A stretch of 64,000 bases of DNA, from assembly GCF_013359755.1 (NCBI RefSeq), contig NZ_JABMCJ010000083.1:124001-188000 (forward strand), given 5' to 3'. The translations under genes and the position numbers were made by a program. The stretch comes from Tardiphaga robiniae (GTDB lineage Bacteria; Pseudomonadota; Alphaproteobacteria; Rhizobiales; Xanthobacteraceae). This document shows, piece after piece, positions 45,801 through 61,651 of this stretch. The notes below the pieces were generated by a model. That model saw only the letters and a program-made list of their open reading frames with translations. It had not been told where the DNA came from and did not search any database. The first letter of the stretch is position 1. The number at the start of each line of letters is the position of its first letter.

Positions 45801-45816
45801 CCAGAACCACAAACGC

Positions 45817-45852
45817 AAAAAAGCGCCGCCCGGTTTCCCGGACGGCGCTTTG
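45817..45852. terminator. Bidirectional terminator between pncB and acyl-CoA synthetase gene
   Basis: A GC-rich stem (AGCGCCGCCCGG / CCGGACGGCGCT, one mismatch) with a TTTC loop, flanked by A6 on the left and TTTG on the right. The minus-strand T-tract is strong, so it mainly ends the synthetase transcript. Confidence 0.8.
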
Positions 45853-45874
45853 TTCTTGTGTATCGGAAGGCCGC

Positions 45875-48037
45875 TTACAGAAGCCCCGCTCCCCGCGCCC
45901 ACTTGTACTTAGCGCCGAGCACCTCGACCGGAAGCTCGGTCGAATAAGCGTAAGCCGGAATGCCGTTCTGGTAGAGATATTCGGCGGCTTCCTCGACTTC
46001 CACGTCGCCCGCAAGCGAAGCGACCATCGGCTTCTCGATGCCCTTGGCCTTCATCTCGTTCTTGATCTCGACCATGTTGCGCGCGAACACCATCGGCGGC
46101 GTCACGATCGTGTGCCAGTAGCCGAGGATCAGCGAGTGGATGCGATCATCGGTGAGACCCAGCTTCACGGTGTTGACGTAAGTGATCGGCGGTTCGCCAC
46201 CGGTGATGTCGACCGGGTTGCCGGCGGCACCGAACGGCGGAATGAACTTGCGGAACGCCGCATCCAGATCCGGCGGCATCGCCATCAGCGACATGCCGTT
46301 ATCGACCACCGCATCGGACAGCAGCACGCCCGAACCACCGGCACCGGTGATGATCAGCACGTTCTCGCCCTTCGGCGTCGGCAGTACGGGAATGCCACGG
46401 GCGAATTCGAGCAGCTGGCGCAGCGAGCGGGCGCGAATGACGCCCGACTGCTTCAGCACGTCCTCATAGATCTTGTCGTTGCCGGCAAGTGCGCCGGTAT
46501 GCGACGAGGCGGCCTTGGCGCCGGCCGAGGTACGGCCTGCCTTGAGGACGACAACCGGCTTCTTCTTGGAGACGCGCTTGGCGGCTTCGGCGAAGGCACG
46601 GCCATCCTTCAGATCCTCGCAGTGCTGCGCGATGATCGTGGTGTTGGGATCCTGCTCGAAGAACGCCAGCAGATCGTCCTCGTCGATATCCGACTTGTTG
46701 CCGAGGCCGACGATCGCCGACACGCCCATCTTGGCAGAGCGCGAGAAGCCAATGATCGCCATGCCGATGCCGCCGGACTGCGACGACAATGCCGCCGAGC
46801 CCTTCACGTCATACGCTGTACAGAAAGTCGCGCAGAGATTGGCCGGCGTATAATAGAAGCCATAGATATTCGGCCCCATCAGACGGACGTCGTATTTCTT
46901 GCCGATTTCGACAATCTCTTCCTGCAATGCAGGCTCGTTGGCTTCGGCAAAGCCCGACGGGATCAGCACCGCGCCCGGAATTTTCTTCTCGCCGCATTCG
47001 ATCAGCGCACCTGCAACGAACTTGGCGGGAATCGCGAATACCGCGGTGTCGATCACGCCCGGAACATCCTTGACGCTCTTATAGGCCTTGCGGCCCATGA
47101 TCTCTTCAGCCTTCGGATGGATCGGGTAGATGTCGCCCTTGTAGCCACCGTTGATGAGGTTCTTCATCACCGAATTGCCGATCTTGCCGTCTTCGGCGGA
47201 GGCGCCGATCACGGCGACGGCCTTCGGCATCATGATGCGGTTCATTGCCGTGACGATTTCGGCGTTGGAGCGCGGCGCGGGGCGCGGTTTGTAGTCGAAA
47301 TCGACGACGATGCGCACGTCGGCGGCAATCGCGTCTTTCTTGGTGGCGAAGACCGGGTTGAGATCGAGTTCGACCATTTCCGGGAAATCGCTGACGAGCT
47401 GCGATACCTTGACGATGATGTCGGCCAGCGCTTCGCGGTTGGCGGGATCGCCGCCGCGTACGCCATGCAGCATCTCGGCGGCCTGAATGCCATCGAGCAT
47501 CGACAGCGCGTCATCATTGGTGGCGGGCGCGAGGCGGAAAGTGACGTCCTTCAGCACTTCGACGAGCACGCCGCCGAGGCCGAAGGCCACCAGCTTGCCG
47601 AACGAACCATCGGTGATCGAACCGATGATCACTTCGGTGCCGCCCATCAGCATCTGCTGAACCTGGATACCTTCTATCTTGGCATCGGCCTTGTACTTCT
47701 TGGCATTGGCCAGAATGGTGTCGTAAGCTTTCTGCGCGTCTTCGGCGGTCTTAACGCCGACAATGACACCGCCCGCTTCGGTCTTGTGGAGAATGTCCGG
47801 CGAGACGATCTTCATCACGACCGGGAAGCCCATGCCGCTTGCCATCTTGGCAGCGTCAGCGGCTGAGGTGGCCACGCCTTCTTTCGGCACGGGAATGCCG
47901 TATGCGTCACACACAAGCTTGCCCTCGGGGGCGGTCAGGCTGGTGCGCTTGTCGGCTTTGACCGCATCTAGAACTTTGCGGACGGCCTGTTTCGCCGATG
48001 GTGTTGCTTCTTTGACGGCAAGATTCGATTGGGACAT
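45875..48037 (-). CDS. Acyl-CoA synthetase (NDP-forming type, fused beta-alpha)
   Basis: This 720-residue acyl-CoA ligase belongs to the NDP-forming (acetate-CoA ligase, ADP-forming) superfamily. The ATP-grasp domain comes first (about residues 20-245; PVVMKIVSPDILHKTEAGGV). The CoA-binding Rossmann domain follows (VAVIGASAEDGKIGN near 275), then two succinyl-CoA-ligase-like domains with the phospho-His in SSHTGALAG near 510. The ATG at 48037 follows AAGGAGGAAGCC. It is divergent from the GntR gene, with two TGGCAT-N5-ATRCCA operators between. In this oxalate locus it may activate oxalate or another dicarboxylate to start the CoA cycle; that substrate is inferred from position. Confidence 0.87.
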   Translation of the reverse strand: MSQSNLAVKEATPSAKQAVRKVLDAVKADKRTSLTAPEGKLVCDAYGIPVPKEGVATSAADAAKMASGMGFPVVMKIVSPDILHKTEAGGVIVGVKTAEDAQKAYDTILANAKKYKADAKIEGIQVQQMLMGGTEVIIGSITDGSFGKLVAFGLGGVLVEVLKDVTFRLAPATNDDALSMLDGIQAAEMLHGVRGGDPANREALADIIVKVSQLVSDFPEMVELDLNPVFATKKDAIAADVRIVVDFDYKPRPAPRSNAEIVTAMNRIMMPKAVAVIGASAEDGKIGNSVMKNLINGGYKGDIYPIHPKAEEIMGRKAYKSVKDVPGVIDTAVFAIPAKFVAGALIECGEKKIPGAVLIPSGFAEANEPALQEEIVEIGKKYDVRLMGPNIYGFYYTPANLCATFCTAYDVKGSAALSSQSGGIGMAIIGFSRSAKMGVSAIVGLGNKSDIDEDDLLAFFEQDPNTTIIAQHCEDLKDGRAFAEAAKRVSKKKPVVVLKAGRTSAGAKAASSHTGALAGNDKIYEDVLKQSGVIRARSLRQLLEFARGIPVLPTPKGENVLIITGAGGSGVLLSDAVVDNGMSLMAMPPDLDAAFRKFIPPFGAAGNPVDITGGEPPITYVNTVKLGLTDDRIHSLILGYWHTIVTPPMVFARNMVEIKNEMKAKGIEKPMVASLAGDVEVEEAAEYLYQNGIPAYAYSTELPVEVLGAKYKWARGAGLL

Positions 48038-48075
48038 GGCTTCCTCCTTCACGTCTTTTCCAATAGACGGATTGA

Positions 48076-48092
48076 TGGCATTTGGTATGCCA
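48076..48092. promoter_or_regulatory. GntR operator candidate O1
   Basis: TGGCAT-TTGGT-ATGCCA is a perfect inverted repeat with 6-bp arms. It lies 39 bases upstream of the acyl-CoA synthetase start in the spacer divergent from the GntR gene. Confidence 0.7.
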
Positions 48093-48156
48093 GAAACTTG
48101 ATTGTCAAGGCGCGTTGCAGCGCAAAATTGCTGAAATAGCTGTCATCTTGACATGC

Positions 48157-48173
48157 TGGCATCTGGTATGCCA
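48157..48173. promoter_or_regulatory. GntR operator candidate O2
   Basis: TGGCAT-CTGGT-ATGCCA is a perfect inverted repeat 52 bases upstream of the GntR start. It differs from O1 at one spacer base, and suggests autoregulation. Confidence 0.7.
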
Positions 48174-48224
48174 AAAATTCTTGACGTTATTTCTGTGGTA
48201 GGACATCTCGACTGGAGATGATTC

Positions 48225-48956
48225 ATGCCCACGCGAAAACAAACCAAGGCGCCGTCCGTCATGTCTGAAGCCGATATCGCGATCGTTCGGATTGCACCGG
48301 AGACCAGCTTCAAGACCAAGGCCTATGAAGCCTTGAAAGAAGCCATTCTTAAGATGGACATCTACACCTCGCCCGATCCGGTGATGCTCGATGAGCGCGC
48401 CCTGTCGGAACGGCTCGGTGTCAGCCGCACACCTATCCGCGAAGCCATTGCGATGCTGGAGCAGGATGGCTTCGTAAAGACCGTGCCACGCCGCGGCATC
48501 GTCGTTGTCAGAAAGACCAAGGTCGAGATCGTCGACATGATCCGCGCCTGGGCGGCGCTGGAAAGCATGGCCGCGCGTCTGATCACGACCACCGCACGCA
48601 AGAAAGATATCTCGGCGCTGCGCGACTTCTTTAAGGACTTCAACAAGGACCGTCTGCCGCAGGACCACGTTGAGGAATATTCGAAGGCGAATATCGCTTT
48701 CCACCAGGCACTGATCTCGCTCAGCGAGTCGCCAGTGCTGGTCGATATGACCAACGATATTCTGCTGCATGTGCGTGGCTATCGTCAGCTGACCATCGGA
48801 CGCACGGACCGTACCGCGACGTCCCTGCCCGAACATCTGGCCATCATCGAAGCGCTTGAAGAGCGCAACACCGAGCTCGCGGAAAAGCGCGCGCGCGATC
48901 ACACGCTCGGTCTGGCTTCTTATGTCGAAGCCCACGGCCAGGAATTGTTTACGTAA
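48225..48956 (+). CDS. GntR-family regulator, FadR (FCD) subfamily
   Basis: This 243-residue regulator has an N-terminal winged helix ([17 protein letters not shown], then [20 protein letters not shown] near residue 60, wing VPRRGIVVV) and a C-terminal all-helical FCD ligand domain (about 100-240). Candidate metal-binding histidines lie in [16 protein letters not shown] and [12 protein letters not shown] regulators usually sense organic acids. It stands directly before oxc (85 bases) and divergent from the acyl-CoA synthetase. Seven related 17-bp palindromes in the locus, two in its own promoter region, are the likely targets. Oxalate, oxalyl-CoA or formyl-CoA would be sensible effectors but this is inference. 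Confidence 0.92.
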
Positions 48957-49041
48957 GCGCCGTCTCGCGACGGTTCACCACTCCGCACCACGTCCAATTG
49001 AGCAACGACCAACAGTCACAAGAAAAGTCAGGGAGAGCGGG

Positions 49042-50781
49042 ATGTCCGCAGTAGTCCAGAGCATCGATACCAACGCAGCCGCCGAGCAGGAATTGACCGA
49101 TGGCTTCCATCTGATCATCGATGCACTCAAGCTCAATGGCCTCAACACGATCTATGGCGTGCCGGGCATTCCGATTACCGACTTCGGCCGCATGGCGCAG
49201 GCCGAGGGGATCCGCGTGCTCTCGTTCCGCCACGAACAGGCCGCAGGCTATGCCGCATCGATCGCCGGCTATCTCACCAAGAAGCCCGGCGTCTGTTTGA
49301 CCGTGTCGGCTCCCGGCTTCCTCAACGGCCTTACGGCGCTGGCTCACGCCACCACCAACTGCTTCCCGATGATCCTGATCTCGGGCTCGTCCGAGCGCGA
49401 GATTGTCGACCTGCAGCAGGGCGACTATGAGGAAATGGATCAGCTCGCGATCGCCAAGCCGCTATGTAAGGCCGCGTTTCGCGTGCTGCATGCGGCCGAC
49501 ATCGGCATCGGTCTCGCCCGCGCGATCCGCGCCGCAGTGTCCGGTCGTCCCGGCGGCGTCTATCTCGATCTGCCTGCCAAGCTGTTCGGTCAGGTGATGA
49601 ACGCCGACGCCGGCAAGAAATCGCTGGTCAAGGTGATCGACGCCGCGCCGGCGCAGATCCCTGCCCCGGATTCGATTAAGCGCGCGCTCGACGTGCTGAA
49701 ATCGGCGAAGAAGCCGCTGATCATCCTCGGCAAAGGCGCCGCTTATGCGCAGGCCGACGATGCCGTGAAGGCGCTGGTCGAAACCTCCGGCATTCCGTTC
49801 CTGCCCATGAGCATGGCCAAGGGCCTTCTGCCTGACACCCATCCGCAGTGTGCGGGTGCTGCACGCTCCACCGTGCTGAAGGATTCGGACGTCGTCATGC
49901 TGATCGGCGCACGCCTGAACTGGCTGCTGTCGCACGGCAAGGGCAAGAGCTGGGGTGATGCACCGAAGAAGTTCATCCAGATCGACATCGAGCCGAAGGA
50001 AATGGACTCCAACGTCGAGATCGTCGCACCTGTTGTCGGCGATATCGGCTCCTGTGTCGCCGCTCTGCTCGATGGCATGGGCAAGGGCTGGCAGAAGGCG
50101 CCGGTAGACTGGGCCAATGCCGTCACCAAGAAGCGTGAAGAGAACGTTGCCAAGATGGCGCCGCGCCTGATGAACAACAACTCGCCGATGGATTATCACG
50201 GCGCGCTCGGCGTTCTGCGCACCATCATCGCCGAACGTCCCGACGCGATGCTCGTCAATGAAGGTGCCAATACACTCGATCTCGCCCGCGGCATCGTCGA
50301 CATGTATCAGCCGCGCAAGCGCATCGATGTCGGCACCTGGGGCATCATGGGCATCGGCATGGGCTATTGCATCGCCGCTGCGGTCGAGACCGGCAAGCCC
50401 GTGCTCGCGATCGAAGGCGACAGCGCCTTCGGTTTCTCCGGCATGGAGGTGGAGACGATCTGCCGCTACAATCTGCCGGTCTGCATCGTTGTCTTCAATA
50501 ATGACGGCATCTATCGCGGCACCGACGTCAATCCGACCGGCGGTTCCGACGTGGCACCGACGGTCTTCGTCAAGGGCTCGCGCTACGACAAGATGATGGA
50601 AGCCTTCGGCGGCATCGGCGTGAACGCGACCTCGCCCGACGAACTCAAGCGCGCCGTCAATGCGGCGATGGATTCCGGCAAGCCGACGCTCATCAATGCG
50701 GTGATCGATCCGGCGGCCGGCAGCGAGAGCGGCCGTATCGGCAACCTCAATCCGCAGAGCGTGCTCAGCAAGAAGAAATAA
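49042..50781 (+). CDS. oxc: Oxalyl-CoA decarboxylase
   Basis: This thiamine-diphosphate enzyme decarboxylates oxalyl-CoA to formyl-CoA. The 579-residue protein has the cofactor-activating Glu65 ([12 protein letters not shown]), the Tyr129-Glu130 pair ([10 protein letters not shown]) and Tyr491 (NNDGIYRG). These match Glu56, Tyr120, Glu121 and Tyr483 of the Oxalobacter enzyme. The diphosphate-binding motif is [13 protein letters not shown] with NND. The ATG at 49042 follows GGGAGAGCGG; a 62-residue upstream frame overlaps the regulator gene and is spurious. It works in a cycle with frc, and a hairpin between the two may lower frc expression. Confidence 0.97.
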
Positions 50782-50790
50782 CACATCAGG

Positions 50791-50818
50791 CGGGGTCGCG
50801 AGACCCCGTCTCCTTTTC
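50791..50818 (+). terminator. Terminator or attenuator between oxc and frc
   Basis: A perfect 7-bp stem CGGGGTC / GACCCCG with a GCGA tetraloop is followed by TCTCCTTTTCTC. It lies 9 bases past the oxc stop and 42 before the frc start. It could be a partial terminator or an mRNA-stabilising hairpin. Confidence 0.6.
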
Positions 50819-50860
50819 TCATATGCCGAGGCGGCAAAACTAGTTTACGGGAGCAAAACA

Positions 50861-52138
50861 ATGACACAGGCGCTCAAAGGCGTTCGCATTCTGGACTTCA
50901 CCCACGTTCAATCTGGCCCGACCTGCACGCAGTTGCTGGCATGGTTTGGCGCTGATGTGATCAAGGTCGAACGGCCCGGCGTTGGCGACATCACCCGCGG
51001 CCAATTGCAGGACGTGCCGAATGTGGACAGCCTGTATTTTACCATGCTGAACCACAACAAGCGCTCGATCACCCTCGACACCAAGAACCCGAAGGGCAAG
51101 GAAGTGCTCACCGCGCTGATGAAAGAGTGCGATGTTCTCGTCGAGAACTTCGGACCCGGCGTGCTCGACCGCATGGGCTTCCCGTTCGAAAAGATTCAGC
51201 AGATCAACCCGAAGATGATCGTCGCCTCGATCAAGGGGTTTGGTCCAGGTCCCTATGAGGACTGCAAGGTCTATGAGAACGTCGCGCAGTGCACCGGCGG
51301 CGCAGCTTCCACCACCGGCTTCCGCGACGGCCTGCCACTCGTCACCGGCGCGCAGATCGGCGATAGCGGCACTGGCCTGCATCTCGCACTCGGCATCGTC
51401 ACCGCGCTGTATCAGCGCACGCAAACCGGCAAAGGCCAGAAGGTCACCGCCGCGATGCAGGACGGCGTGCTCAACCTGTCGCGCGTCAAGCTGCGCGACC
51501 AGCAGCGCCTCGCTCACGGTCCGCTCAAGGAATACAGCCAGTTCGGCGAAGGCATTCCGTTCGGCGATGCCGTGCCCCGCGCGGGCAACGACTCCGGCGG
51601 TGGTCAGCCCGGCCGCATCCTGAAGTGCAAGGGCTGGGAAACCGACCCGAACGCCTACATCTACTTCATCACTCAGGCGCCGGTGTGGGAGAAGATCTGC
51701 GACGTGATCGGCGAACCGACCTGGAAGACCGACCCGGCCTATGCCAAGCCGGCGGTGCGCCTGCCCAAGCTCAACGCGATCTTCGCGCGCATCGAACAGT
51801 GGACGATGACCAAGACCAAATTCGAGGCGATGGAAATCCTCAATCAGGACGACATCCCGTGCGGCCCGATCCTGTCCATGAAGGAACTGGCCGAAGACCA
51901 GTCACTGCGTGCGACCGGCACCGTGGTCGAGGTCGATCACCCCGAGCGCGGCAAGTATCTGTCGGTTGGCAATCCGATTAAGCTATCGGAAAGCCCCACC
52001 GAAGTGACGCGCTCGCCCCTGCTCGGCGAACATACCGACGAAATCCTCAGGCAAGTGCTGGGCTTCAGCGATCATCAGGTGGCCGAAATCCACGATTCAG
52101 GCGCGCTCGACCCGCCGCGCAAGGTTGCCGCTGAGTAA
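50861..52138 (+). CDS. frc: Formyl-CoA:oxalate CoA-transferase
   Basis: This class III CoA-transferase moves CoA from formyl-CoA to oxalate, giving oxalyl-CoA for Oxc and free formate. The 425-residue protein has the N-terminal [16 protein letters not shown] and [10 protein letters not shown]. The catalytic Asp168 in IGDSGTGLH matches Asp169 of the Oxalobacter enzyme. The glycine loop is SGGGQP near 246. The ATG follows GGGAGCAAAACA. It ends with a clear terminator. Closely related YfdW-like enzymes exist, but pairing with oxc makes the assignment firm. Confidence 0.97.
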
Positions 52139-52169
52139 TTTCACCAGTTATTTCAAATAATTACATGCG

Positions 52170-52196
52170 AAAGGCCGCCGATTGGCGGCCTTTTTC
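52170..52196 (+). terminator. Rho-independent terminator behind frc
   Basis: Stem GGCCGCC / GGCGGCC with a GATT loop and a five-T tract, 32 bases after the frc stop. Confidence 0.88.
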
Positions 52197-52295
52197 ATTT
52201 ATGGTGATCCAAGCGGAACTTTAATAAGAAAATCAAATCGACCTATATCGCACTGCGAAATCCTCATGCTGCCATGCAAACAAGACAATTGTCCT

Positions 52296-52312
52296 TGGCA
52301 TCTGGTATACGT
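52296..52312 (+). promoter_or_regulatory. GntR operator candidate O3 (degenerate)
   Basis: TGGCAT-CTGGT-ATACGT has the same left arm and spacer as O2 but a decayed right arm. It lies 59 bases ahead of the small-protein start at 52372. Confidence 0.5.
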
Positions 52313-52371
52313 AAATTGATCCCAGATGATGAGGCGCCAAGACGCGGCGGCCTCCAGCAAAGGATCAAATC

Positions 52372-52509
52372 ATGTCGAAGACTGCTTCTCTCGACCTTAC
52401 CACGTCCACCAGCTTCTTCGCTCGTTTCATTGCCTCGCTCGATCGCGCGCTGATGGCCAGCGCACGCATCTCGGCCCGCAACGGCGACCTGCCCCGCTTC
52501 GGCCTGTAA
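52372..52509 (+). CDS. Small protein of 45 residues, unannotated type
   Basis: I do not recognise this gene with certainty. It encodes 45 residues starting MSKTASLDLTTSTSFF and ending NGDLPRFGL. The N-terminus is polar and Ser/Thr-rich. The middle (FFARFIASLDRALMASARI) could form an amphipathic helix. The tail is basic with a Gly-Leu end, loosely recalling DUF1127 peptides. The ATG follows AAAGGATCAAATC. An operator half-match (O3) stands upstream and a strong terminator downstream, so it is a self-contained transcription unit within the oxalate locus. The coding call rests on these flanking signals and sensible codon use. Confidence 0.7.
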   Translation: MSKTASLDLTTSTSFFARFIASLDRALMASARISARNGDLPRFGL

Positions 52510-52575
52510 GGCTGCAACTTCACTACGTTTGCGCGGCTAGCCCGCGCAAAATTCTCTGCGTTCCTCCCGACGACT

Positions 52576-52604
52576 GGCCCCGGATTTCCGGGGCCGTTTT
52601 TTTT
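52576..52604 (+). terminator. Strong terminator behind the small-protein gene
   Basis: Stem GGCCCCGG / CCGGGGCC with an ATTT loop, then G and eight T. It is preceded by a second hairpin (TTTGCGCGG / CCGCGCAAA) nearer the stop codon. Confidence 0.9.
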
Positions 52605-53008
52605 GTTTGTGTAGTTGCATCGCAGCGACGTCTCGCGCTCCCTGCGACATTTCAGCCTCCCCGGCTTTTAACGGCTCTAATCGCTTGCCGCTTGGCATAT
52701 CGCATACCAAAATGCGCGAACGGTAATGCTTCACGTCTGAATAGAAAGCATACCTGGGGAGGACAAAGGCTGCGCTGCCTTCGCGGGCACGCGATGCCGT
52801 ATGCGCAATGACAGAGCGATCCAGACCCACTCATCCTTTTTGCAGGCGAGCCGCTTCGATGCTCGACAGTCTGACGTGCGCATATGGCGCATGCAAGGGC
52901 GCGTTTGAACACCTGCAGTCAGGACATTCGAAGGAAGACCCGACCACGCACTGACGATTTCAAAGTCGACGAACGATCGACGCTATCAAAACGAATGGGA
53001 GAGAAACA
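52605..53008. other. Promoter region of the tctCBA operon
   Basis: These 404 bases carry operator O4 at 52693-52709 and a long 5' leader of about 300 bases before tctC. A GGGGAGG ribosome-site-like sequence at about 52756 has no start codon at a proper distance. A 31-codon frame at 52859-52954 lacks support. No other feature was found. Confidence 0.5.
52693..52709 (+). promoter_or_regulatory. GntR operator candidate O4
   Basis: TGGCAT-ATCGC-ATACCA keeps both arms (with the C/T change allowed in other sites). It lies about 300 bases upstream of tctC. Confidence 0.65.
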
Positions 53009-54022
53009 ATGAAACGCCTTGGTTCATGTCTCACGCTGGCCGCCGCTGCATCCATTCTCTGCCTGGGAGCGTCTCTCCCGGCATCTGCTGCATGGGAGCC
53101 GACGCGCCCCGTCGAATTGATCGTTCCCGCAGGCACCGGCGGCGGCGCTGATCAGATGGCGCGCACCATTCAGGGCATCATTACCAAGCACAGCCTGATG
53201 AAGCAGCCGCTTGTCGTCATCAACAAGTCGGGTGGCGCGGGCGGTGAAGGTTTCCTCGACGTGAAGTCGGCGAACAACAATCCGCACAAGATCATCATCA
53301 CGTTGTCTAACCTGTTCACGACGCCGCTCGCCACCGGCATTCCCTTCAATTGGAAGGATCTCACCCCGGTCGCAATGCTGGCACTCGACGAGTTCGTGCT
53401 GTGGGTAAATGCCGACAAACCGTACAAGACGGTGAAGGACTATATCGACGCCGTGAAGGCTGCGCCGGCCGGCACGATCAAGATGGGCGGCACGGGCTCG
53501 AAGCAGGAAGACCAGATCATCACGGTCGCGGTCGAGAAGGCGATCGGCAGCAAGTTCACTTACATCCCTTACAAGGGCGGCGGTGAAGTTGCAGTGCAGC
53601 TCGTTGGTCAGCACGTCGACTCAACCGTGAACAATCCGATCGAGGCAGTCGCGCAGTGGCGCGGCGGCAAGGTGCGTCCGCTCTGCGTCTTCGACAGCAA
53701 GCCGATGGCCTATGACGAGCAGGTCGCCGACGGCAAGGGCTGGAAGGACATTCCGACCTGCAAGTCACAGGGGCTCGACATCGAATATGTGATGCTGCGC
53801 GGCATCTTCATGGGGCCGAAAGCGACGAAGGATCAGATCGATTATTATGTCGAACTGTTCAAGAAGGTCCGCGCGACGCCCGAGTGGCAGGACCTGATGA
53901 AGAGCGGCGCCTTCAACACGACCTTCATGACCGGCGGTGAATATGCCAGCTGGGTTGGCACCGAAGAGAAGCGCCACGAGACGCTGATGAAGGAAGCCGG
54001 CTTCCTCGCGCAAGGCAACTGA
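53009..54022 (+). CDS. tctC: Tripartite tricarboxylate transporter binding protein (TctC/Bug family)
   Basis: This periplasmic binding protein has 337 residues. A Sec signal (GSCLTLAAAASILCLGAS, cleavage near ASAA) precedes the mature chain, which opens with WEPTRPVELIVPAGTGGGADQMAR, the Bug-family carboxylate-binding loop. FTYIPYKGGGEVAVQLVG near residue 180 is the second family hallmark. It captures a carboxylate for TctAB; given the setting, oxalate or a related dicarboxylate is a fair guess. The ATG follows GAGAGAAACA. A 12-bp hairpin lies after its stop. Confidence 0.92.
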   Translation: MKRLGSCLTLAAAASILCLGASLPASAAWEPTRPVELIVPAGTGGGADQMARTIQGIITKHSLMKQPLVVINKSGGAGGEGFLDVKSANNNPHKIIITLSNLFTTPLATGIPFNWKDLTPVAMLALDEFVLWVNADKPYKTVKDYIDAVKAAPAGTIKMGGTGSKQEDQIITVAVEKAIGSKFTYIPYKGGGEVAVQLVGQHVDSTVNNPIEAVAQWRGGKVRPLCVFDSKPMAYDEQVADGKGWKDIPTCKSQGLDIEYVMLRGIFMGPKATKDQIDYYVELFKKVRATPEWQDLMKSGAFNTTFMTGGEYASWVGTEEKRHETLMKEAGFLAQGN

Positions 54023-54037
54023 CGCAGGCGCCATGAC

Positions 54038-54066
54038 GCCGGACCTGATCGCACATCAGGTCCGGC
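54038..54066 (+). other. Stem-loop between tctC and tctB
   Basis: A perfect 12-bp stem (GCCGGACCTGAT / ATCAGGTCCGGC) with a CGCAC loop and no T-tract begins 16 bases after the tctC stop. It probably stabilises the tctC message or limits read-through to the membrane subunits. Confidence 0.65.
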
Positions 54067-54112
54067 ACATGCAACACGCTGATCGACGCTGATCTCTCAC
54101 ACAGAGTTGTCC

Positions 54113-54610
54113 ATGACCACGCAGCAATCTCACAACGTAGGCCCGTCCCACAAATCCGTCGAAGCCGGCGTCACCACCGTCATCGGCCTGTTCGGCGCCA
54201 TCGTCGTCTATGGCAGCGTCAAGGCCGGCATCAACTGGGGCGCAGAGGGACCGAAAGCCGGATTCTTTCCGTTCTATATCGGGCTGTTCATCATCATCTC
54301 CAGCCTCGTCAATATCTGGAACACGCTGCGCGAGGACGACGGCAGCCTTTTCGCCGAATGGGGCCAGTTGCGCCAGGTTTTCAGCGTCGTCATTCCCACC
54401 GGCATCTATGTCGGCGTCCTGCCGTTCATCGGACTCTACGTGTCCTCGATGATTTTCATCGCATGGTTCATGCGCTGGCTTGGCAAATATGAGTGGCCGA
54501 TCATCGCCGCGATCTCTCTCGGCATGCCTGTCGTCACCTACCTGATCTTCGAACGCTGGTTTCTCGTGCCGCTCCCCAAAGGACCGCTTGAGGATCTGCT
54601 CGGTCTCTGA
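54113..54610 (+). CDS. tctB: TTT small membrane subunit (TctB)
   Basis: This 165-residue small membrane subunit has four predicted membrane segments (about residues 20-38, 52-70, 88-122 in two spans, 130-148). The family has poor sequence conservation, so its place between tctC and tctA is the main evidence, helped by GPKAGFFPFYIGLFIIISS, the usual TctB motif. The ATG at 54113 is preferred over a TTG at 54107. Confidence 0.88.
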   Translation: MTTQQSHNVGPSHKSVEAGVTTVIGLFGAIVVYGSVKAGINWGAEGPKAGFFPFYIGLFIIISSLVNIWNTLREDDGSLFAEWGQLRQVFSVVIPTGIYVGVLPFIGLYVSSMIFIAWFMRWLGKYEWPIIAAISLGMPVVTYLIFERWFLVPLPKGPLEDLLGL

Positions 54611-54667
54611 TTTCCGCGATCTTTAATTCCGTTGCGTCTGCCGGTCTCTTTCTGAGGACTACTCGAA

Positions 54668-56173
54668 ATGGAAGAAATTGCTAATCTGTTCCAGGGCTTT
54701 GCGGTCGCGCTGCAGCCATTCAACATCGCGGTGATGGTGCTCGGCATCGTGCTGGGCGTCATCATCGGCGTGCTGCCCGGCCTTGGCGGCGCCAATGGCG
54801 TTGCAATCCTGCTGCCCCTCACCTTCAGCATGCCGCCGACATCGGCCATCATCATGCTGTCCTGCATCTATTGGGGCGCATTGTTCGGAGGTGCGATCAC
54901 CTCGATCCTGTTCAACATCCCCGGAGAGCCATGGTCGGTGGCCACGACATTCGACGGCTATCCGATGGCGCAGCAGGGCAAGGCTGCCGAAGCACTAACC
55001 GCCGCCTTCACCTCCTCTTTCGTTGGCGCACTGTTCGCCGTCGTCATGATCACCTTGGTCGCGCCGCTGGTCGCAGGCTTCGCCTTACGATTCGGACCCG
55101 CGGAGAAGTTCGCGGTCTATTTCCTGGCGTTCTGCAGTTTCGTCGGGCTGAGTAAGGAGCCACCTTTCAAGACCATTGCGGCGATGATGATCGGTTTTGC
55201 CCTCGCCGCGGTCGGCCTCGATTCCATTACCGGACAACTGCGACTCACGTTTGGTTCGACCGAACTTCTCAATGGCTTCGACTTCCTGATCGCAGTCATC
55301 GGCCTGTTCGGCCTTGGCGAAATCTTCCTCACCATGGAGGAAGGCCTGCGCTTCCAGGGCGGCAAGGCGAAGATCGATCTTCGCGTCGTGCTCCGTACCT
55401 GGATGAGCTTGCCGCAATACTGGATGACGTCACTGCGCTCCTGCGTGATCGGTTGCTGGATGGGTGTCACGCCCGCAGGTGCGACACCGGCATCGTTCAT
55501 GAGTTACGGGATCGCCAAGCGCGTCTCCAAGAACGGCAACAATTTCGGCAAGGGCGAGATCGAAGGCGTTATCGCTCCGGAAACGGCCGCGCATGCCGCC
55601 GGTACCGCAGCCCTACTTCCGATGCTCTCGCTCGGCGTCCCCGGTTCGCCAACTGCCGCTGTGCTTCTTGGTGGTCTGCTGATCTGGGGCCTGCAGCCCG
55701 GCCCGATGCTATTCGTCGAGCAGAAGGAGTTCGTCTGGGGCCTGATCGCCTCGATGTATCTCGGCAATCTCGTCGGCCTGATCATCGTGCTGACCTGCGT
55801 ACCGATCTTCGCAGCGATCCTGCGGGTTCCATTCAGCATCATCGCACCTCTTATCCTGGTGCTCTGTGCGATCGGAGCCTACTCCGTCCACAACTCGACC
55901 TTCGACGTGGTGATGATGCTGGTATTCGGAATCATCGGTTACGCACTGAAGAAGTGTAACTATCCCCTCGCCCCGCTGGTGCTGGCCATCGTGCTTGGCG
56001 ACAAGGCCGAGGAAGCCTTCCGTCAGTCGCTGCTGGGGTCGCAGGGATCGCTCGGGATCTTCTTCTCGAACACGCTGGTGAGCAGCATCATGATCCTCGG
56101 CCTGATCGCGCTGTTCTGGTCGGTGATCCAGAACGGCTTCACCCGGCTGCGTACTCGCACTGCAGCAGCGTAA
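54668..56173 (+). CDS. tctA: TTT large permease (TctA)
   Basis: This is the 501-residue large permease of the tripartite tricarboxylate transporter. It has about 11-12 hydrophobic segments. The conserved loop VLPGLGGANGVAILLPLTF lies near residue 37, and a second motif GVTPAGATPASFMSYG with EGVIAPETAAHAA lies near 265. The ATG follows a GAGGACTACTCGAA stretch. It ends with a GC-rich hairpin terminator. Confidence 0.94.
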   Translation: MEEIANLFQGFAVALQPFNIAVMVLGIVLGVIIGVLPGLGGANGVAILLPLTFSMPPTSAIIMLSCIYWGALFGGAITSILFNIPGEPWSVATTFDGYPMAQQGKAAEALTAAFTSSFVGALFAVVMITLVAPLVAGFALRFGPAEKFAVYFLAFCSFVGLSKEPPFKTIAAMMIGFALAAVGLDSITGQLRLTFGSTELLNGFDFLIAVIGLFGLGEIFLTMEEGLRFQGGKAKIDLRVVLRTWMSLPQYWMTSLRSCVIGCWMGVTPAGATPASFMSYGIAKRVSKNGNNFGKGEIEGVIAPETAAHAAGTAALLPMLSLGVPGSPTAAVLLGGLLIWGLQPGPMLFVEQKEFVWGLIASMYLGNLVGLIIVLTCVPIFAAILRVPFSIIAPLILVLCAIGAYSVHNSTFDVVMMLVFGIIGYALKKCNYPLAPLVLAIVLGDKAEEAFRQSLLGSQGSLGIFFSNTLVSSIMILGLIALFWSVIQNGFTRLRTRTAAA

Positions 56174-56201
56174 GTAACGATACAGATAACTGTTCAAACC
56201 C

Positions 56202-56230
56202 AAAAGCCGGCGGTCTGGACCGCCGGCTTT
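56202..56230 (+). terminator. Terminator behind tctA
   Basis: Stem AAAGCCGGCGGT / ACCGCCGGCTTT with a CTGG loop, 29 bases past the tctA stop; the T-tract beyond the stem is short. Confidence 0.8.
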
Positions 56231-56311
56231 GTGCTGTCTTGTAGTATCGCAGTACAGCATTCAGTCATGCGAAACTTGCAGCGGCAAATTGGCAAGATTT
56301 CGCTTGTTAGT

Positions 56312-56328
56312 TGGCATATCATATACCA
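56312..56328 (+). promoter_or_regulatory. GntR operator candidate O5
   Basis: TGGCAT-ATCAT-ATACCA, 54 bases upstream of the first OxlT-like gene. Confidence 0.68.
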
Positions 56329-56382
56329 AACTATCCTTCGCAGCTGTCGAGCTCTCAATAGAACAGCGCTTTAGGAGGAACT

Positions 56383-57672
56383 ATGACTGATGCAGTTCAC
56401 GGGGTGGCACCAGCTGCCGCACGTGTCAGCGATGCCTACCGCTGGACACAACTTGCCATCGGCGTTGGCGCGATGGTGATGATCGCCAACTATCAATACG
56501 GCTGGACGTTCTTCGTCCCCGACATCCAGAAGAAGTTCGGCTGGGATCGTGCGTCGATCCAGTGGGCCTTCACCCTCTTCGTTCTGTTCGAGACCTGGCT
56601 GGTGCCGGTCGAAGGATGGTTCGTCGATAAATACGGCCCGAAGCTCGTCGTCCTTATCGGCGGCATTCTCTGCGGCATCGGCTGGGCGATCAATGCACAG
56701 GCGGAAACGCTCAACGGCTTCTATCTCGGCATGATCGTTGCGGGCATCGGCGCTGGCGGCGTCTACGGCACCTGCGTCGGCAATGCCCTGAAGTGGTTTC
56801 CTGACAAGCGCGGCCTCGCGGCTGGCATCACCGCTGCAGGCTTCGGTGCCGGCTCCGCCCTCACGGTCGCGCCGATCCAGGCCATGATCCAGGATTCCGG
56901 CTTCCAGACTGCATTTCTGTATTTCGGTCTCGGACAAGGCATCATCATCGTGATCCTCTCCTTCTTCCTGTTCGCGCCAAAGGCTGGGCAGGTACCGGCG
57001 GTCACGCAGAACGCCAACGTGATCCAGACCCGCCGCAACTACGCGCCGACAGAAGTCATCCGCCATCCGATCTTCTGGCTGATGTACTTCATGTTCGTGA
57101 TCGTCGGTGCCGGCGGCCTGATGGTGACGGCCAACCTGAAGCCCATTGCGGCCGACTGGAAGATCGACAACGTACCCGTCACGCTGATGGCCATGACGAT
57201 GACGGCGGTTACCTTCGCAGCCACCATCGACCGCGTACTCAACGGCCTGACACGTCCGTTCTTCGGCTGGATCTCCGACATGATCGGCCGCGAGAACACG
57301 ATGTTCATCGCCTTCGGCATGGAAGGCGTCGGAATCTGGGCGCTGTATATGTGGGGTCACGATCCGCTGTGGTTCGTGCTGTTGTCGGGCTTCGTGTTCT
57401 TCGCCTGGGGTGAGATCTATTCGCTCTTCCCATCGACCTGCACCGACACCTTCGGCTCCAAGTTCGCAACGACCAATGCCGGCCTACTCTATACGGCAAA
57501 GGGGACGGCAGCACTTCTGGTGCCGGTCGCGAACTACATGCAGCAGTCGTCGGGCACGTGGGACAGCGTCTTTCTCATTGCAGCCGGCGCCAATATCCTG
57601 GCTTCACTGCTCGCCATTGCGGTGCTGAAGCCTTGGCGTAAGGTCGTCGTCAGCAAGGCGCTTGCGACCTAA
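56383..57672 (+). CDS. oxlT: OxlT-like oxalate/formate antiporter, copy 1 (MFS)
   Basis: This is an MFS transporter of 429 residues with twelve predicted membrane segments. It resembles OxlT, which swaps external oxalate for internal formate. Two charged residues within the membrane, Arg291 (NGLTRPFFGW) and Lys373 (LLYTAKGTAALLVP), are 82 residues apart, close to the spacing of the essential Arg272 and Lys355 of Oxalobacter OxlT. GNALKWFPDKRGLAAG near residue 132 is a family signature. The ATG follows AGGAGGAACT. It has its own operator and terminator, and a paralogue follows. Confidence 0.9.
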   Translation: MTDAVHGVAPAAARVSDAYRWTQLAIGVGAMVMIANYQYGWTFFVPDIQKKFGWDRASIQWAFTLFVLFETWLVPVEGWFVDKYGPKLVVLIGGILCGIGWAINAQAETLNGFYLGMIVAGIGAGGVYGTCVGNALKWFPDKRGLAAGITAAGFGAGSALTVAPIQAMIQDSGFQTAFLYFGLGQGIIIVILSFFLFAPKAGQVPAVTQNANVIQTRRNYAPTEVIRHPIFWLMYFMFVIVGAGGLMVTANLKPIAADWKIDNVPVTLMAMTMTAVTFAATIDRVLNGLTRPFFGWISDMIGRENTMFIAFGMEGVGIWALYMWGHDPLWFVLLSGFVFFAWGEIYSLFPSTCTDTFGSKFATTNAGLLYTAKGTAALLVPVANYMQQSSGTWDSVFLIAAGANILASLLAIAVLKPWRKVVVSKALAT

Positions 57673-57696
57673 AAAACGCAAAAGCCTCAAGAAAAC

Positions 57697-57728
57697 AACG
57701 CGCTCAGCCCTGGCTGGGCGCGTTTTGC
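57697..57728 (+). terminator. Terminator behind first oxlT
   Basis: Long stem AACGCGC-T-CAGCC / GGCTG-G-GCGCGTT with a CT loop, followed by TTGCG; it begins 24 bases past the stop. Confidence 0.8.
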
Positions 57729-57798
57729 GTGGGCGATGCGCTGCTCGCCAAGGCGTGATCACCTTCACGCAACAATCGGCCAAAACCACCTTGCATCG

Positions 57799-57815
57799 TG
57801 GAATATAATATACCA
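57799..57815 (+). promoter_or_regulatory. GntR operator candidate O6
   Basis: TGGAAT-ATAAT-ATACCA, with one change in the left arm, 89 bases upstream of the second OxlT-like gene. Confidence 0.6.
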
Positions 57816-57904
57816 GTCTCCGACCAAGCGACGCCTGCGGCAATACGCCACAACCTTAGCGACACCACGCCGCAAGGGAAAAAGCGCGCATCGGAGGAAA
57901 CACG

Positions 57905-59215
57905 ATGGCTCAGCCAGACTTCACCACCGCGTCCAACCCACCCGGCAGCTTCCGCTGGATTCAACTCGTGATGGGCATCGTCTGCATGGCGATGATCGCC
58001 AATCTGCAATACGGATGGACGCTGTTCGTCGATCCCATCGACGCCAAGTATCACTGGGGTCGCGCCGCGATCCAGCTCGCCTTCACGCTGTTCGTCGTCG
58101 TCGAAACCTGGCTGGTGCCGGTCGAAGCGTGGTTCGTCGACAAATACGGTCCCCGCGTCGTCATCATGTTCGGCGGAGCCATGATCAGCCTCGCCTGGGT
58201 GCTGAACTCCTATGCGGACTCACTGGTGATGCTTTACGCCGGCGCCGTCGTCGGCGGCATCGGCGCCGGTTCGGTCTACGGCACCTGCGTCGGCAATGCT
58301 CTGAAGTGGTTTCCCGATCGCCGCGGCCTCGCTGCGGGCGCCACGGCGGCAGGCTTCGGCGCTGGCGCTGCGATCACCGTCGTGCCGATTGCGCATATGA
58401 TAGCCGAGAGCGGCTATCAGCACGCCTTCTTCACCTTCGGCATCGGCCAGGGCGTGATCGTGTTCATGCTCGCCTTCTTCATGCGTCCGCCTGGGCAGGC
58501 CGTGCCGGTGACGAGGAAACAACTCAATCTGCCGCAGACAAAGACGGATTTCACGCCGCCGCAAGTGCTGCGCAGCCCGATCTTCTGGGTCATGTATCTT
58601 GTCTTCGTGATGGTCGCCGCCGGTGGCTTGATGACCGCAGCGCAGATCGCGCCCATCGCCCACGACTACAATATTGCGAATTCTCCGGTGACACTGGCCG
58701 GCTTCCAGATGGCAGCACTGACCTTCGCCATCTCGCTCGATCGCATCTTCGACGGGTTCGGCCGCCCGCTCTTCGGCTGGTTGTCCGATCAGATCGGTCG
58801 TGAACACACCATGTTCATCGCCTTCGGCACCGCCGCGCTGATGCTGCTGACGCTGTCGGCCTATGGCCACAACCCACTCGTCTTCGTACTGGCGACGGCG
58901 GTCTATTTCGGCGTCTTCGGTGAGATCTACAGTCTGTTTCCGGCGACGTCAGGCGATACGTTCGGCGCCAAATACGCCGCGACGAATAACGGCATGCTCT
59001 ACACCGCAAAGGGCACGGCGGCATTGTTGGTACCACTCGCGAGCCTGATCGCAGCGAGCTATGGATGGCAGGCCGTGTTTGTGATCGCCGTTGCGCTCAA
59101 TGCCACGGCTGCGTTGCTCGCTTTGTTCGTTATCAAGCCGATGCGACGTGCATTCATTCTGGGGAGCGAGCCTGCCGTACCGGAAGCCGCGGCGCACAGC
59201 GCCAAGACCGCCTGA
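57905..59215 (+). CDS. OxlT-like oxalate/formate antiporter, copy 2 (MFS)
   Basis: This second MFS antiporter of the OxlT type has 436 residues and is similar to copy 1 throughout. Arg287 (FGRPLFGWLSD) and Lys369 (MLYTAKGTAALLVP) keep the same 82-residue spacing as in copy 1. GNALKWFPDRRGLAAG is conserved. It differs in the loop after segment 6 and in its C-terminal tail. With its own operator, start site and terminator, it can be expressed independently. The two copies may differ in affinity or in preferred direction of exchange; this is inference. Confidence 0.9.
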   Translation: MAQPDFTTASNPPGSFRWIQLVMGIVCMAMIANLQYGWTLFVDPIDAKYHWGRAAIQLAFTLFVVVETWLVPVEAWFVDKYGPRVVIMFGGAMISLAWVLNSYADSLVMLYAGAVVGGIGAGSVYGTCVGNALKWFPDRRGLAAGATAAGFGAGAAITVVPIAHMIAESGYQHAFFTFGIGQGVIVFMLAFFMRPPGQAVPVTRKQLNLPQTKTDFTPPQVLRSPIFWVMYLVFVMVAAGGLMTAAQIAPIAHDYNIANSPVTLAGFQMAALTFAISLDRIFDGFGRPLFGWLSDQIGREHTMFIAFGTAALMLLTLSAYGHNPLVFVLATAVYFGVFGEIYSLFPATSGDTFGAKYAATNNGMLYTAKGTAALLVPLASLIAASYGWQAVFVIAVALNATAALLALFVIKPMRRAFILGSEPAVPEAAAHSAKTA

Positions 59216-59239
59216 TCGATCGAAGCTTGTTCAAGATTT

Positions 59240-59269
59240 AAGGGGCGCACGCGAGCGCGCCCCTTTTTT
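59240..59269 (+). terminator. Strong terminator behind second oxlT
   Basis: Stem GGGGCGC / GCGCCCC with an eight-base loop and six T, 25 bases past the stop. Confidence 0.88.
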
Positions 59270-59421
59270 CATGCCCAACTGGCATGCCAGACCTCCAACT
59301 GGATTCGCTGGTGCGATAGAAGCACGGCGAAAAACACACGCCACGCAGCAATAAACGTCAGAAACACTGACTTTCTTTCTTGACCACCGGGCTTCGATAT
59401 CCTCGTTTCCGCGTTGACAAC

Positions 59422-59438
59422 TGGCATACCGTATACCA
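59422..59438 (+). promoter_or_regulatory. GntR operator candidate O7 with -35 element
   Basis: TGGCAT-ACCGT-ATACCA lies 54 bases upstream of the CBS-protein start. A consensus -35 hexamer TTGACA (59414-59419) ends two bases before it, so a bound repressor would cover the promoter spacer. Confidence 0.68.
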
Positions 59439-59492
59439 ATCTTGCGCCTACAAGATCGATCCTCAGCCGATCAGCCAAGGGAGGTTATTGCC

Positions 59493-59924
59493 ATGCAAGT
59501 CGGAGATATCCTGCGTAGGAAGAGCACCCGTATCGCCACTGTCCGCATGAACGAGACCGTCGCCATCGCGGCGCAGTTGCTTCGGACGGGCAATATCAGC
59601 GCACTGGTCGTGAAGGACGTGTGCCGCACCGAGGGCAACACCGCGGTCGGCATGTTCTCCGAGCGCGACGTGGTTCGCGCGATCGCCGAACACGGCGCCG
59701 CCGGCGTCAATCGTAAGGTCTCGGATATGATCTCGGTCCAGGAATTGATTTCCTGCCACTCGACCGACACGCTCGAACATGTGCGACACTTGATGAACAA
59801 GCATCACATTCGGCACGTCCCGGTCATCGACGATCACACGCTGATCGGCGTGATCAGCATCCGTGACATCAGCAGGGCGCTCGATCATGAGGATGTACCG
59901 CAAGCGCATGCAGCGGTCGCCTGA
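59493..59924 (+). CDS. Two-CBS-domain protein
   Basis: This 143-residue cytoplasmic protein consists of a pair of CBS domains (a Bateman module) and little else. The first (about residues 5-60) has NISALVVKDVCRTEG and GMFSERDVVRAI. The second (about 75-135) has HHIRHVPVIDDHTLIGVISIRDI. Such modules bind adenine nucleotides or related ligands and adjust partner proteins. The ATG at 59493 follows AAGGGAGG. Operator O7 ties it to the oxalate locus; a link to adenylate or CoA status while growing on oxalate is possible but unproven. Confidence 0.9.
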   Translation: MQVGDILRRKSTRIATVRMNETVAIAAQLLRTGNISALVVKDVCRTEGNTAVGMFSERDVVRAIAEHGAAGVNRKVSDMISVQELISCHSTDTLEHVRHLMNKHHIRHVPVIDDHTLIGVISIRDISRALDHEDVPQAHAAVA

Positions 59925-60036
59925 GGCCTAGCCTCAAGCTCACTTCGCGTTTCATACCGGTATCGACACGGACCGCCAGCGGTCCGTGATGCCAGTTCTT
60001 TTGCCTTGTCCGCGCCCGTTGCCTTGGTGACATTTC

Positions 60037-60342
60037 ATGAAGATCTGCATCTACGGCGCCGACGCCATCGGCGGCTATCTCGGCGTTCAGCTCGCGCGGG
60101 CTGGCGCCGATGTCAGCCTTGTCGCGCGCGGCGCGCATCTTGCGGCGATGCGCGCAAATGGACTGAAGCTGCTGATAGCAGGAGAAGAACACGTCGTGCA
60201 TATCCCCTGCACCGACGATCCAGCAGAACTCGGCGAGCAGGATTATGTCATCATTTTCCTGAAGGCCCATTCGATCACCGGTGTGATCGAACAGATGCAG
60301 CCGCTGCTCGGACCAAGGACACGCATTGTCACCGCGATGAAT
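60037..60342 (+). pseudogene. Truncated ketopantoate reductase (PanE/ApbA), N-terminal part
   Basis: Only about the first 102 residues of a roughly 300-residue 2-dehydropantoate 2-reductase-like protein remain. The NADP motif is YGADAIGGYLG (Asp in place of the first usual Gly), followed by VSLVARGAHLAAMRANGLKL and QDYVIIFLKAHS. Similarity stops after RIVTAMN, where a normal protein would continue GIPWW. The frame then runs on in arginine-rich nonsense to 60468. The catalytic domain is lost, so this is a broken gene. The join with a fumarylacetoacetate-hydrolase tail follows directly. Confidence 0.85.
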
Positions 60343-60343
60343 C

Positions 60344-60484
60344 TCCCACGACATGACCCTGCTGCCGGGCGATCTGATCTGCTGCGGCACCCCTGTCGGC
60401 GTCGGCGTGATGAAGGAGCCTGTCAACACCGTAACCATCGCGATCGAAGGTATCGGCGAGCTACATAACGAATTCCACCAATAG
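60344..60484 (+). pseudogene. C-terminal remnant of a fumarylacetoacetate-hydrolase-family gene
   Basis: In a frame different from the PanE remnant, 46 codons read SHDMTLLPGDLICCGTPVGV and then GVMKEPVNTVTIAIEGIGEL, ending at TAG (60482-60484). This is the conserved C-terminus of FAH-family (2-hydroxyhepta-2,4-diene-1,7-dioate isomerase-like) proteins. It has no start codon or N-terminal domain. It is the right-hand side of a deletion that fused it to the PanE remnant. Confidence 0.85.
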
Positions 60485-60491
60485 GAATTAG

Positions 60492-61631
<1,140 letters not shown>

Positions 61632-61651
61632 ACGGAACGGAAAGCAGAGCC

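Follow-up and report, generated by a model that had tools for sequence, protein, structure and literature searches.

A conserved 17-bp inverted repeat marks an oxalate regulon in Tardiphaga and its relatives that reaches into central metabolism, with an FCD-type GntR protein as its likely reader

A 64,000-nucleotide stretch of Tardiphaga robiniae DNA (contig NZ_JABMCJ010000083.1, positions 124,001 to 188,000; hereafter the window) holds oxc, frc and two oxalate/formate antiporter genes together, each assigned by an NCBIfam equivalog model above its cut-off (TIGR03254, TIGR03253 and, twice, TIGR04259), raising the question of whether this oxalate degradation cluster answers to one regulator and how far the control of that regulator extends. 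An earlier note, made from the sequence alone, had proposed a local oxalate regulon marked by seven copies of a 17-base-pair (bp) operator and bound by the FCD-type GntR protein encoded in its midst. Here we describe a real and well-conserved regulon, of a known kind but with an unexpected reach into central metabolism. Judged from sequence comparison, the inverted repeat TGGYAT-N5-ATRCCA is very probably the operator of the GntR protein encoded at 48225-48956, which would repress the oxalate genes and sucC and be released by an oxalate-derived ligand.

The seven operators had been placed at 48076, 48157, 52296, 52693, 56312, 57799 and 59422, and all seven coordinates are correct, as are the length of 17 bp for each copy and the positions in the upstream regions named. 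Five of the seven (48076, 48157, 52693, 56312 and 59422) match TGGCAT-N5-ATRCCA exactly. The site at 52296 (TGGCATCTGGTATACGT), rightly called degenerate, has two mismatches, and the one at 57799 (TGGAATATAATATACCA) has a mismatch that had gone unmentioned. Could such sites have arisen by chance, as repeats of a palindrome rich in AT within a genome rich in GC? When two mismatches are allowed, the motif is weak by itself, because 19 matches are observed in the window and 8.5 expected (both strands; standard deviation 4.05), a count reached in 2 of 100 shuffles. The exact pattern TGGYAT-N5-ATRCCA is expected, from the window's composition, 0.7-1.0 times per 6.3-Mb genome and about 0.001-0.002 times per 11.4 kb. 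The earlier note had held that sites equally frequent elsewhere in the genome would speak against it; the pattern search of the genome (6.3 Mb, 94 contigs) found seven exact sites, five of them in this cluster, and none for the same pattern read backwards. The remaining two lie between mdh and sucC and, in favor of chance, within coding sequence, inside an ABC-transporter-like gene (C89:67192, locus L002). One mismatch gives 55 genome sites (about 50 of them listed and a part of these examined), against 10 for the backwards control. An AT-centred version of the pattern, with at most one mismatch, retrieves seven genome sites, namely six of the window's seven and the sucC site; the site at 52296 has three mismatches to it. 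Two mismatches add four further sites, and the backwards control also yields four. Candidates with two mismatches were rejected at C2:39801, overlapping the start codon of an aldehyde-dehydrogenase-like gene (L014), at C2:121387, within an ABC-transporter-like coding region (L015; both genes named by eye), and at C65:27075 (L227) and C84:173605 (L228), with no clear relation to a gene start. As the genome was searched by pattern, the list of sites with several mismatches is incomplete. The small Poisson probability of the exact sites is also unclean, since the pattern was picked after the sites were seen, and conservation upstream of the same genes in relatives is a better test than site frequency.

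For this test, a matrix built solely from the seven window sites was applied to 40 stretches from genomes of the family and 80 further loci, of which 102 carry a close GntR orthologue (76-100% identical, all distinct), with a cut-off of 15 bits. The comparison of the same locus in relatives had been suggested in the earlier note, and the sites do precede the units that it named. A site lies upstream of the GntR gene in 101 of the 102 loci, and in the single miss (L067) it sits at the predicted start codon. The same holds for the acyl-CoA ligase gene (94/94 relatives' loci), the gene for a 45-residue protein (56/56), tctC (41/44), oxlT1 (47/49), oxlT2 (23/23) and the CBS-domain gene (41/41). 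No site precedes the internal genes oxc (0/94), tctB (0/46) and tctA (0/46) in these loci; the single frc match among 100 (L068, position -3822) is an artefact, that gene starting beyond the contig end. The genes NMO and QOR (60636-62620) are excluded from the regulon, with an upstream site in 0 of 25 and 0 of 22 relatives' loci, respectively, and panE has one in 1 of 24. Where gene order differs, the sites travel with their genes. The counterpart of the 52296 site scores 16-24 bits at the same place, and in none of the 56 loci is its right end perfect (commonest form TGGCATCTGGTATACAT); it therefore looks like a conserved weak form rather than a decayed one. The operators of the ligase and GntR genes are 80-82 bp apart in 83 of 94 loci (71, 74, 79, 90 or 105 bp in the others), and these 94 loci give no firm sign of helical phasing. 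Thus, the same operator stands at each unit, is kept across species and is absent before internal genes. Since the sites are conserved at the heads of units across 102 loci, and none of 398 controls from coding regions reached the cut-off (maximum 6.5 bits), we give the chance explanation practically no credence.

The operators also occupy a regular position relative to promoter-like elements. A TTG precedes the operator by 7-9 bp in six promoters and by 16 bp in that of the ligase. In relatives it stands at the fixed offset before GntR (89/91), tctC (35/40), oxlT1 (44/46), oxlT2 (23/23), the CBS gene (39/41), the 45-residue gene (46/56) and the ligase gene (51/81), against a mean frequency of 0.04-0.05 at any offset. 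A hexamer whose second base is A and whose sixth is T follows 17 bp on for tctC (37/40), oxlT1 (45/46), oxlT2 (23/23), the CBS gene (39/41) and the 45-residue gene (48/56). In these five promoters the 17-bp spacer is taken up by the operator, which reaches up to or into the proposed -10. The A of this hexamer is supplied by the final base of the operator in four of them; the T falls outside the operator. At 52296, the deviating last base of the operator is the first base of the proposed -10, and this double duty may explain the lasting imperfection of the site. A proper TTGACA (at least 5/6 within 35 bp) shows enrichment only in front of the operators of GntR, the ligase and the CBS gene.

Two modes of action have to be weighed against this placement. 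A site in the spacer, over or against the -10, fits repression by polymerase exclusion. The GntR protein might instead activate from between -35 and -10, as MerR-type activators also sit in the promoter spacer. MerR promoters, however, have a stretched spacer, and the five promoters have ordinary 17-bp ones; the operator overlaps or abuts the proposed -10; and autoregulation from a divergent region is common for repressors of the FCD type. We therefore consider activation very unlikely.

Which protein reads the operator? The GntR protein combines an N-terminal winged helix-turn-helix (PF00392, 46.9 bits, cut-off 27) with a C-terminal FCD ligand-binding domain (PF07729, 79.1 bits, cut-off 24.3), and its own promoter carries the palindrome at 48157. 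It reached no cut-off among the NCBIfam models of named regulators: the best matches are PhnR (TIGR03338, 94.7 bits, cut-off 271.5) and NanR (NF003011, 63.7 bits, cut-off 260), with LldR and PdhR among the 18 matches listed. Orthologues of at least about 76% identity occur in 27 of 119 genomes of the family, its own included, and 144 of 146 Bradyrhizobium genomes have a match at E<=1e-90. The 27 orthologue genomes contain 1-8 exact sites (mean 4.6), and the 21 genomes lacking a homologue at E<=1e-40 (20 listed and G117 by elimination) contain 0-1 (mean 0.19); the 71 genomes with only more distant homologues stand outside this comparison. Among distant homologues (50-60% identical), in 7 of 13 loci a GntR gene adjoining oxc is preceded by a site scoring at least 15 bits, and every homologue aligned retains the recognition-helix stretch G-SRTP-REA. 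Conservation and co-occurrence tie the motif to this GntR subfamily, and from them we infer that the GntR protein is the probable binder.

Footprinting and the co-occurrence of GntR and motif lend strong support to the proposal that the oxalate genes share one operator and that the FCD-type GntR protein is its likely binder, but the regulon is not local. An equally good site precedes the chromosomal sucC gene, on contig C7 (the cluster is on C90), and in relatives one precedes a formate dehydrogenase operon too. In the genome of the window, the sucC site falls in the interval that separates mdh from sucC, 73 bp upstream of the start of sucC; the distance is 73-75 bp in all five Tardiphaga genomes and in the four Bradyrhizobium genomes of the first sample. 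The site is found in 134 of 146 Bradyrhizobium genomes, with a gap of 40-70 bp to the sucC start; the 17 bp are near-invariant, and the spacer to the start differs between groups. Of the remaining 12, three yielded no sucC from the assembly, three have a near variant (G124, G246 and G241) and six are without a site, two of these (G133 and G170) having an extra sucC. The extra sucCD genes of G133 share two strong operators (L281:2930 and 3125) with a divergent stretch that comprises an IclR-like gene (by eye), glyoxylate carboligase and tartronate semialdehyde reductase. Since sucC sits behind mdh, its basal level is probably supplied from farther upstream, and the promoter under the operator would add an oxalate-dependent share.

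A second sucC was found in eight genomes of other genera in which the chromosomal sucC has no site (G025, G065, G087, G016, G059, G043, G095 and G112). In six of them it is at most about 10 kb from the GntR gene, in G095 it is 43 kb away and in G112 it is on another contig. Seven of the upstream regions score 11.7-14.1 bits and that of G095 scores 6.0 (99th percentile in shuffled 400-bp upstream regions, 9.0 bits). SucC and SucD were confirmed by NCBIfam in G025. Overall, nine of the 27 orthologue genomes have the operator on sucC, eight a second copy, ten neither and none both. In Bradyrhizobium G217, one sucC bears the operator, one does not, and a third copy lies in the oxalate cluster. A rule of either an operator on sucC or a second sucC is suggestive, as it is clumped by genus and broken by G217.

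The formate dehydrogenase operon was recognized by a NuoE/NuoF-fusion-like subunit, 81-100% identical to that of G105 in 12 of the 40 genomes searched. In G105, the one relative in which the alpha subunit was confirmed, the formate dehydrogenase alpha subunit gene follows (TIGR01591, 719 bits, cut-off 666). A site of 18.7-27.7 bits lies 60-172 bp upstream of the operon in 11 of the 12 genomes; in the twelfth, G106, whose GntR protein is 58% identical, the best upstream score is 8.2 bits. Five Tardiphaga genomes have NuoE/NuoF-fusion-like matches of just 39-42% identity.

Several observations weigh against a GntR-repressed regulon of this extent. The relatives are not independent samples. Five orthologue genomes have one exact site each. 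Ten orthologue genomes have neither a sucC operator nor a second sucC (G067: 161 bp upstream only), and Tardiphaga's own formate dehydrogenase locus (L241, TIGR01591, 932 bits) has no site, with a best score of 5.2 bits in 11 kb. Promoter placement is a description, not a blind test, because the offsets were picked from the alignment consensus. TTGACA proper is at or below shuffle level for the 45-residue gene (4/56), tctC (5/41), oxlT1 (7/46) and oxlT2 (1/23), for which the -35 is thus assigned by its TTG; the GntR -10 fits best at 19 bp (53/91); and the ligase promoters of relatives show no clear -10 at any fit.

The remaining observations of this kind would fit another regulator, for instance a second FCD-type protein encoded elsewhere in the genome, as the reader of the operator, the GntR gene being one target among others. 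Six of the 13 distant loci have no site of at least 15 bits before the GntR gene, and two of these, L078 and L085, adjoin oxc. Exact operator-like sites occur near HPP-family-like genes in three genomes of another genus (L183:2020, L184:2062 and L185:2023; genes named by eye, no oxalate gene seen by eye), which may mean that another reader exists. TGGTAT-like half-sites are used by other FCD regulators. E. coli NanR is described as binding GGTATA repeats (PMC8012715). Against this, the number of motifs follows the presence of this GntR orthologue, which is the sole match at E<=1e-40 in the window's genome; its gene has the site in all loci of the footprint set save L067, with the start-codon position noted above; and the seven distant loci retain the site beside oxc. 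Another reader in place of the GntR protein is hence improbable.

The GntR protein resembles the FCD-subfamily repressors of catabolic operons, NanR, LldR, PdhR and the phosphonate regulator PhnR, in its Pfam GntR and FCD domains. NanR of E. coli is described as repressing three operons through sites in promoter regions, its substrate weakening the binding (PMC8012715). Unlike the repeats bound by NanR, the operator here is a 17-bp inverted repeat with a 5-bp spacer, and unlike those of all four regulators, the targets are those of oxalate degradation and, among them, a gene of the tricarboxylic acid cycle. In E. coli yfdXWUVE, frc and oxc are likewise controlled from upstream inverted repeats, but there the regulator is reported to be EvgA, of a two-component acid-response system (PMC3720670), and not an FCD-type GntR protein. 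Bradyrhizobium diazoefficiens has the same pathway as the one described here: it metabolizes oxalate, and its Frc (Bll3156) and Oxc (Bll3157) are reported to be expressed in soybean nodules (PMC4926349). The text of that study does not use the word GntR, and the passages considered here describe no operator. Our literature search, which covered titles and the starts of abstracts, with subscription journals and predicted-regulon databases outside it, found no published operator for an oxalate GntR regulator, and a prediction may exist.

The features of the cluster are collected in Table 1. The acyl-CoA ligase reached no NCBIfam equivalog cut-off, the 45-residue protein has no Pfam or NCBIfam match, and an Rfam scan of 45000-62000 gave none.

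Table 1. Genes and operators of the oxalate cluster, in window coordinates
Feature	Position	Strand	Evidence or sequence features
NDP (nucleoside diphosphate)-forming acyl-CoA ligase, 720 amino acids, divergent from GntR	45875..48037	-	Pfam ATP-grasp_5, Succ_CoA_lig, CoA_binding_2, Ligase_CoA_2
Operator 1, acyl-CoA ligase promoter	48076..48092	.	Exact match; TTGACA at 48108-48103, minus strand
Operator 2, GntR-oxc-frc promoter	48157..48173	.	Exact match; TTGACA at 48148-48153
FCD-type GntR regulator, 243 amino acids, proposed repressor	48225..48956	+	Pfam GntR PF00392, FCD PF07729
oxc, oxalyl-CoA decarboxylase	49042..50781	+	NCBIfam NF006721 1029 bits, TIGR03254 1022 bits, both above cut-off
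frc, formyl-CoA transferase	50861..52138	+	TIGR03253 746 bits, above cut-off
Operator 3, promoter of the 45-residue protein	52296..52312	.	Two mismatches, right arm; TTGTCC-N17-TAAATT, proposed -10 at 52312-52317
45-residue protein	52372..52509	+	Homologues 47-98% identical in 56 relatives' loci
Operator 4, tctCBA promoter	52693..52709	.	Exact match; TTGCCG-N17-CAAAAT
tctC, solute-binding protein of tripartite tricarboxylate transporter	53009..54022	+	PF03401
tctB	54113..54610	+	PF07331
tctA	54668..56173	+	PF01970
Operator 5, oxlT-1 promoter	56312..56328	.	Exact match; TTGTTA-N17-CAAACT
oxlT-1, oxalate/formate antiporter	56383..57672	+	TIGR04259 653 bits, cut-off 335
Operator 6, oxlT-2 promoter	57799..57815	.	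One mismatch; TTGCAT-N17-CAGTCT
oxlT-2, oxalate/formate antiporter	57905..59215	+	TIGR04259 643 bits, cut-off 335
Operator 7, CBS-domain gene promoter	59422..59438	.	Exact match; TTGACA-N17-CAATCT
CBS-domain protein, 143 amino acids	59493..59924	+	Pfam CBS PF00571, two stretches

Some further features of the locus were seen in passing. Downstream of the gene of the 45-residue protein (interval 52372-52605), a hairpin-like repeat and a run of Ts are visible by eye near 52585-52605, which gives the gene the look of a self-contained unit. About 300 bp separate the tctC operator from the tctC start (52709-53009), a distance of 282-410 bp in the 41 relatives' loci with the site, and this interval is possibly a long leader. 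Just past oxlT-2, at 59280-59289, TGGCATGCCA forms a palindrome of 10 bp in which two half-sites stand without the 17-bp spacing. The segment at 60037-60468 is a deletion scar that has left residues 1-102 of a 324-residue panE2-type reductase fused to residues 216-261 of an FAH-family protein of 262 residues. In stretches from sister Tardiphaga, both genes are near full length (L285), panE2 fragments occur without FAH (L283), the FAH end alone is present (L284) or neither was found (L286), as if this branch were repeatedly being lost. In another genus, g23 (GntR 57% identical), a panE2-type gene (by eye) has an exact site 51 bp upstream (L180:6451), and similar sites occur at L181:2051 and L182:2015, the former with a tartronate-semialdehyde-reductase-like gene near (by eye).

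Taken together, these data suggest the following scheme. A GntR dimer would bind the repeat in the spacer and over or against the -10 of sigma-70-type promoters, excluding RNA polymerase. Once oxalate enters, a metabolite, either oxalate or, more likely, an acyl-CoA made from it, would free GntR from the DNA and thereby derepress uptake (tctCBA and the two oxlT genes), activation and decarboxylation (acyl-CoA ligase, oxc and frc), the 45-residue and CBS proteins and the regulator itself, together with an unlinked target, the housekeeping succinyl-CoA ligase gene sucC; in relatives, an NAD-type formate dehydrogenase would come under the same control. The predicted operator thus covers import, CoA loading, decarboxylation, CoA transfer and, in relatives, formate oxidation, and one repressor probably switches the whole oxalate pathway.

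Why should sucC belong to it? In Pseudomonas oxalaticus, according to an early report, oxalate is said to be primed with CoA from succinyl-CoA, and our guess is that the same priming accounts for sucC membership. We tentatively propose, as a possibility that we hold to be less likely than not, that the repressor has captured central metabolism: an operator on the housekeeping sucC, or in other genera a second sucCD beside the oxalate genes, would let succinyl-CoA ligase rise as more oxalate becomes available, the reason being that the CoA first put onto oxalate would come from succinyl-CoA. Against such priming, no detectable product is reported from succinyl-CoA and oxalate with the class III transferases YfdE and UctC (PMC3720670), so the step would need a different enzyme, for which the acyl-CoA ligase or Frc of this cluster may be candidates.

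With this regulon, what was a list of neighboring genes becomes a testable switch for a whole pathway that starts with oxalate import and, in relatives, extends to formate oxidation; the bacteria concerned encounter oxalate from plants in soil and nodules. The regulon provides a precise operator that can now be searched for in any genome, ties the 45-residue and CBS proteins to growth on oxalate, and singles out sucC as a regulon member, which bears on how oxalate gets its first activation. If the capture of central metabolism proves true, succinyl-CoA would be the priming CoA donor for oxalate growth in Bradyrhizobium and Tardiphaga.

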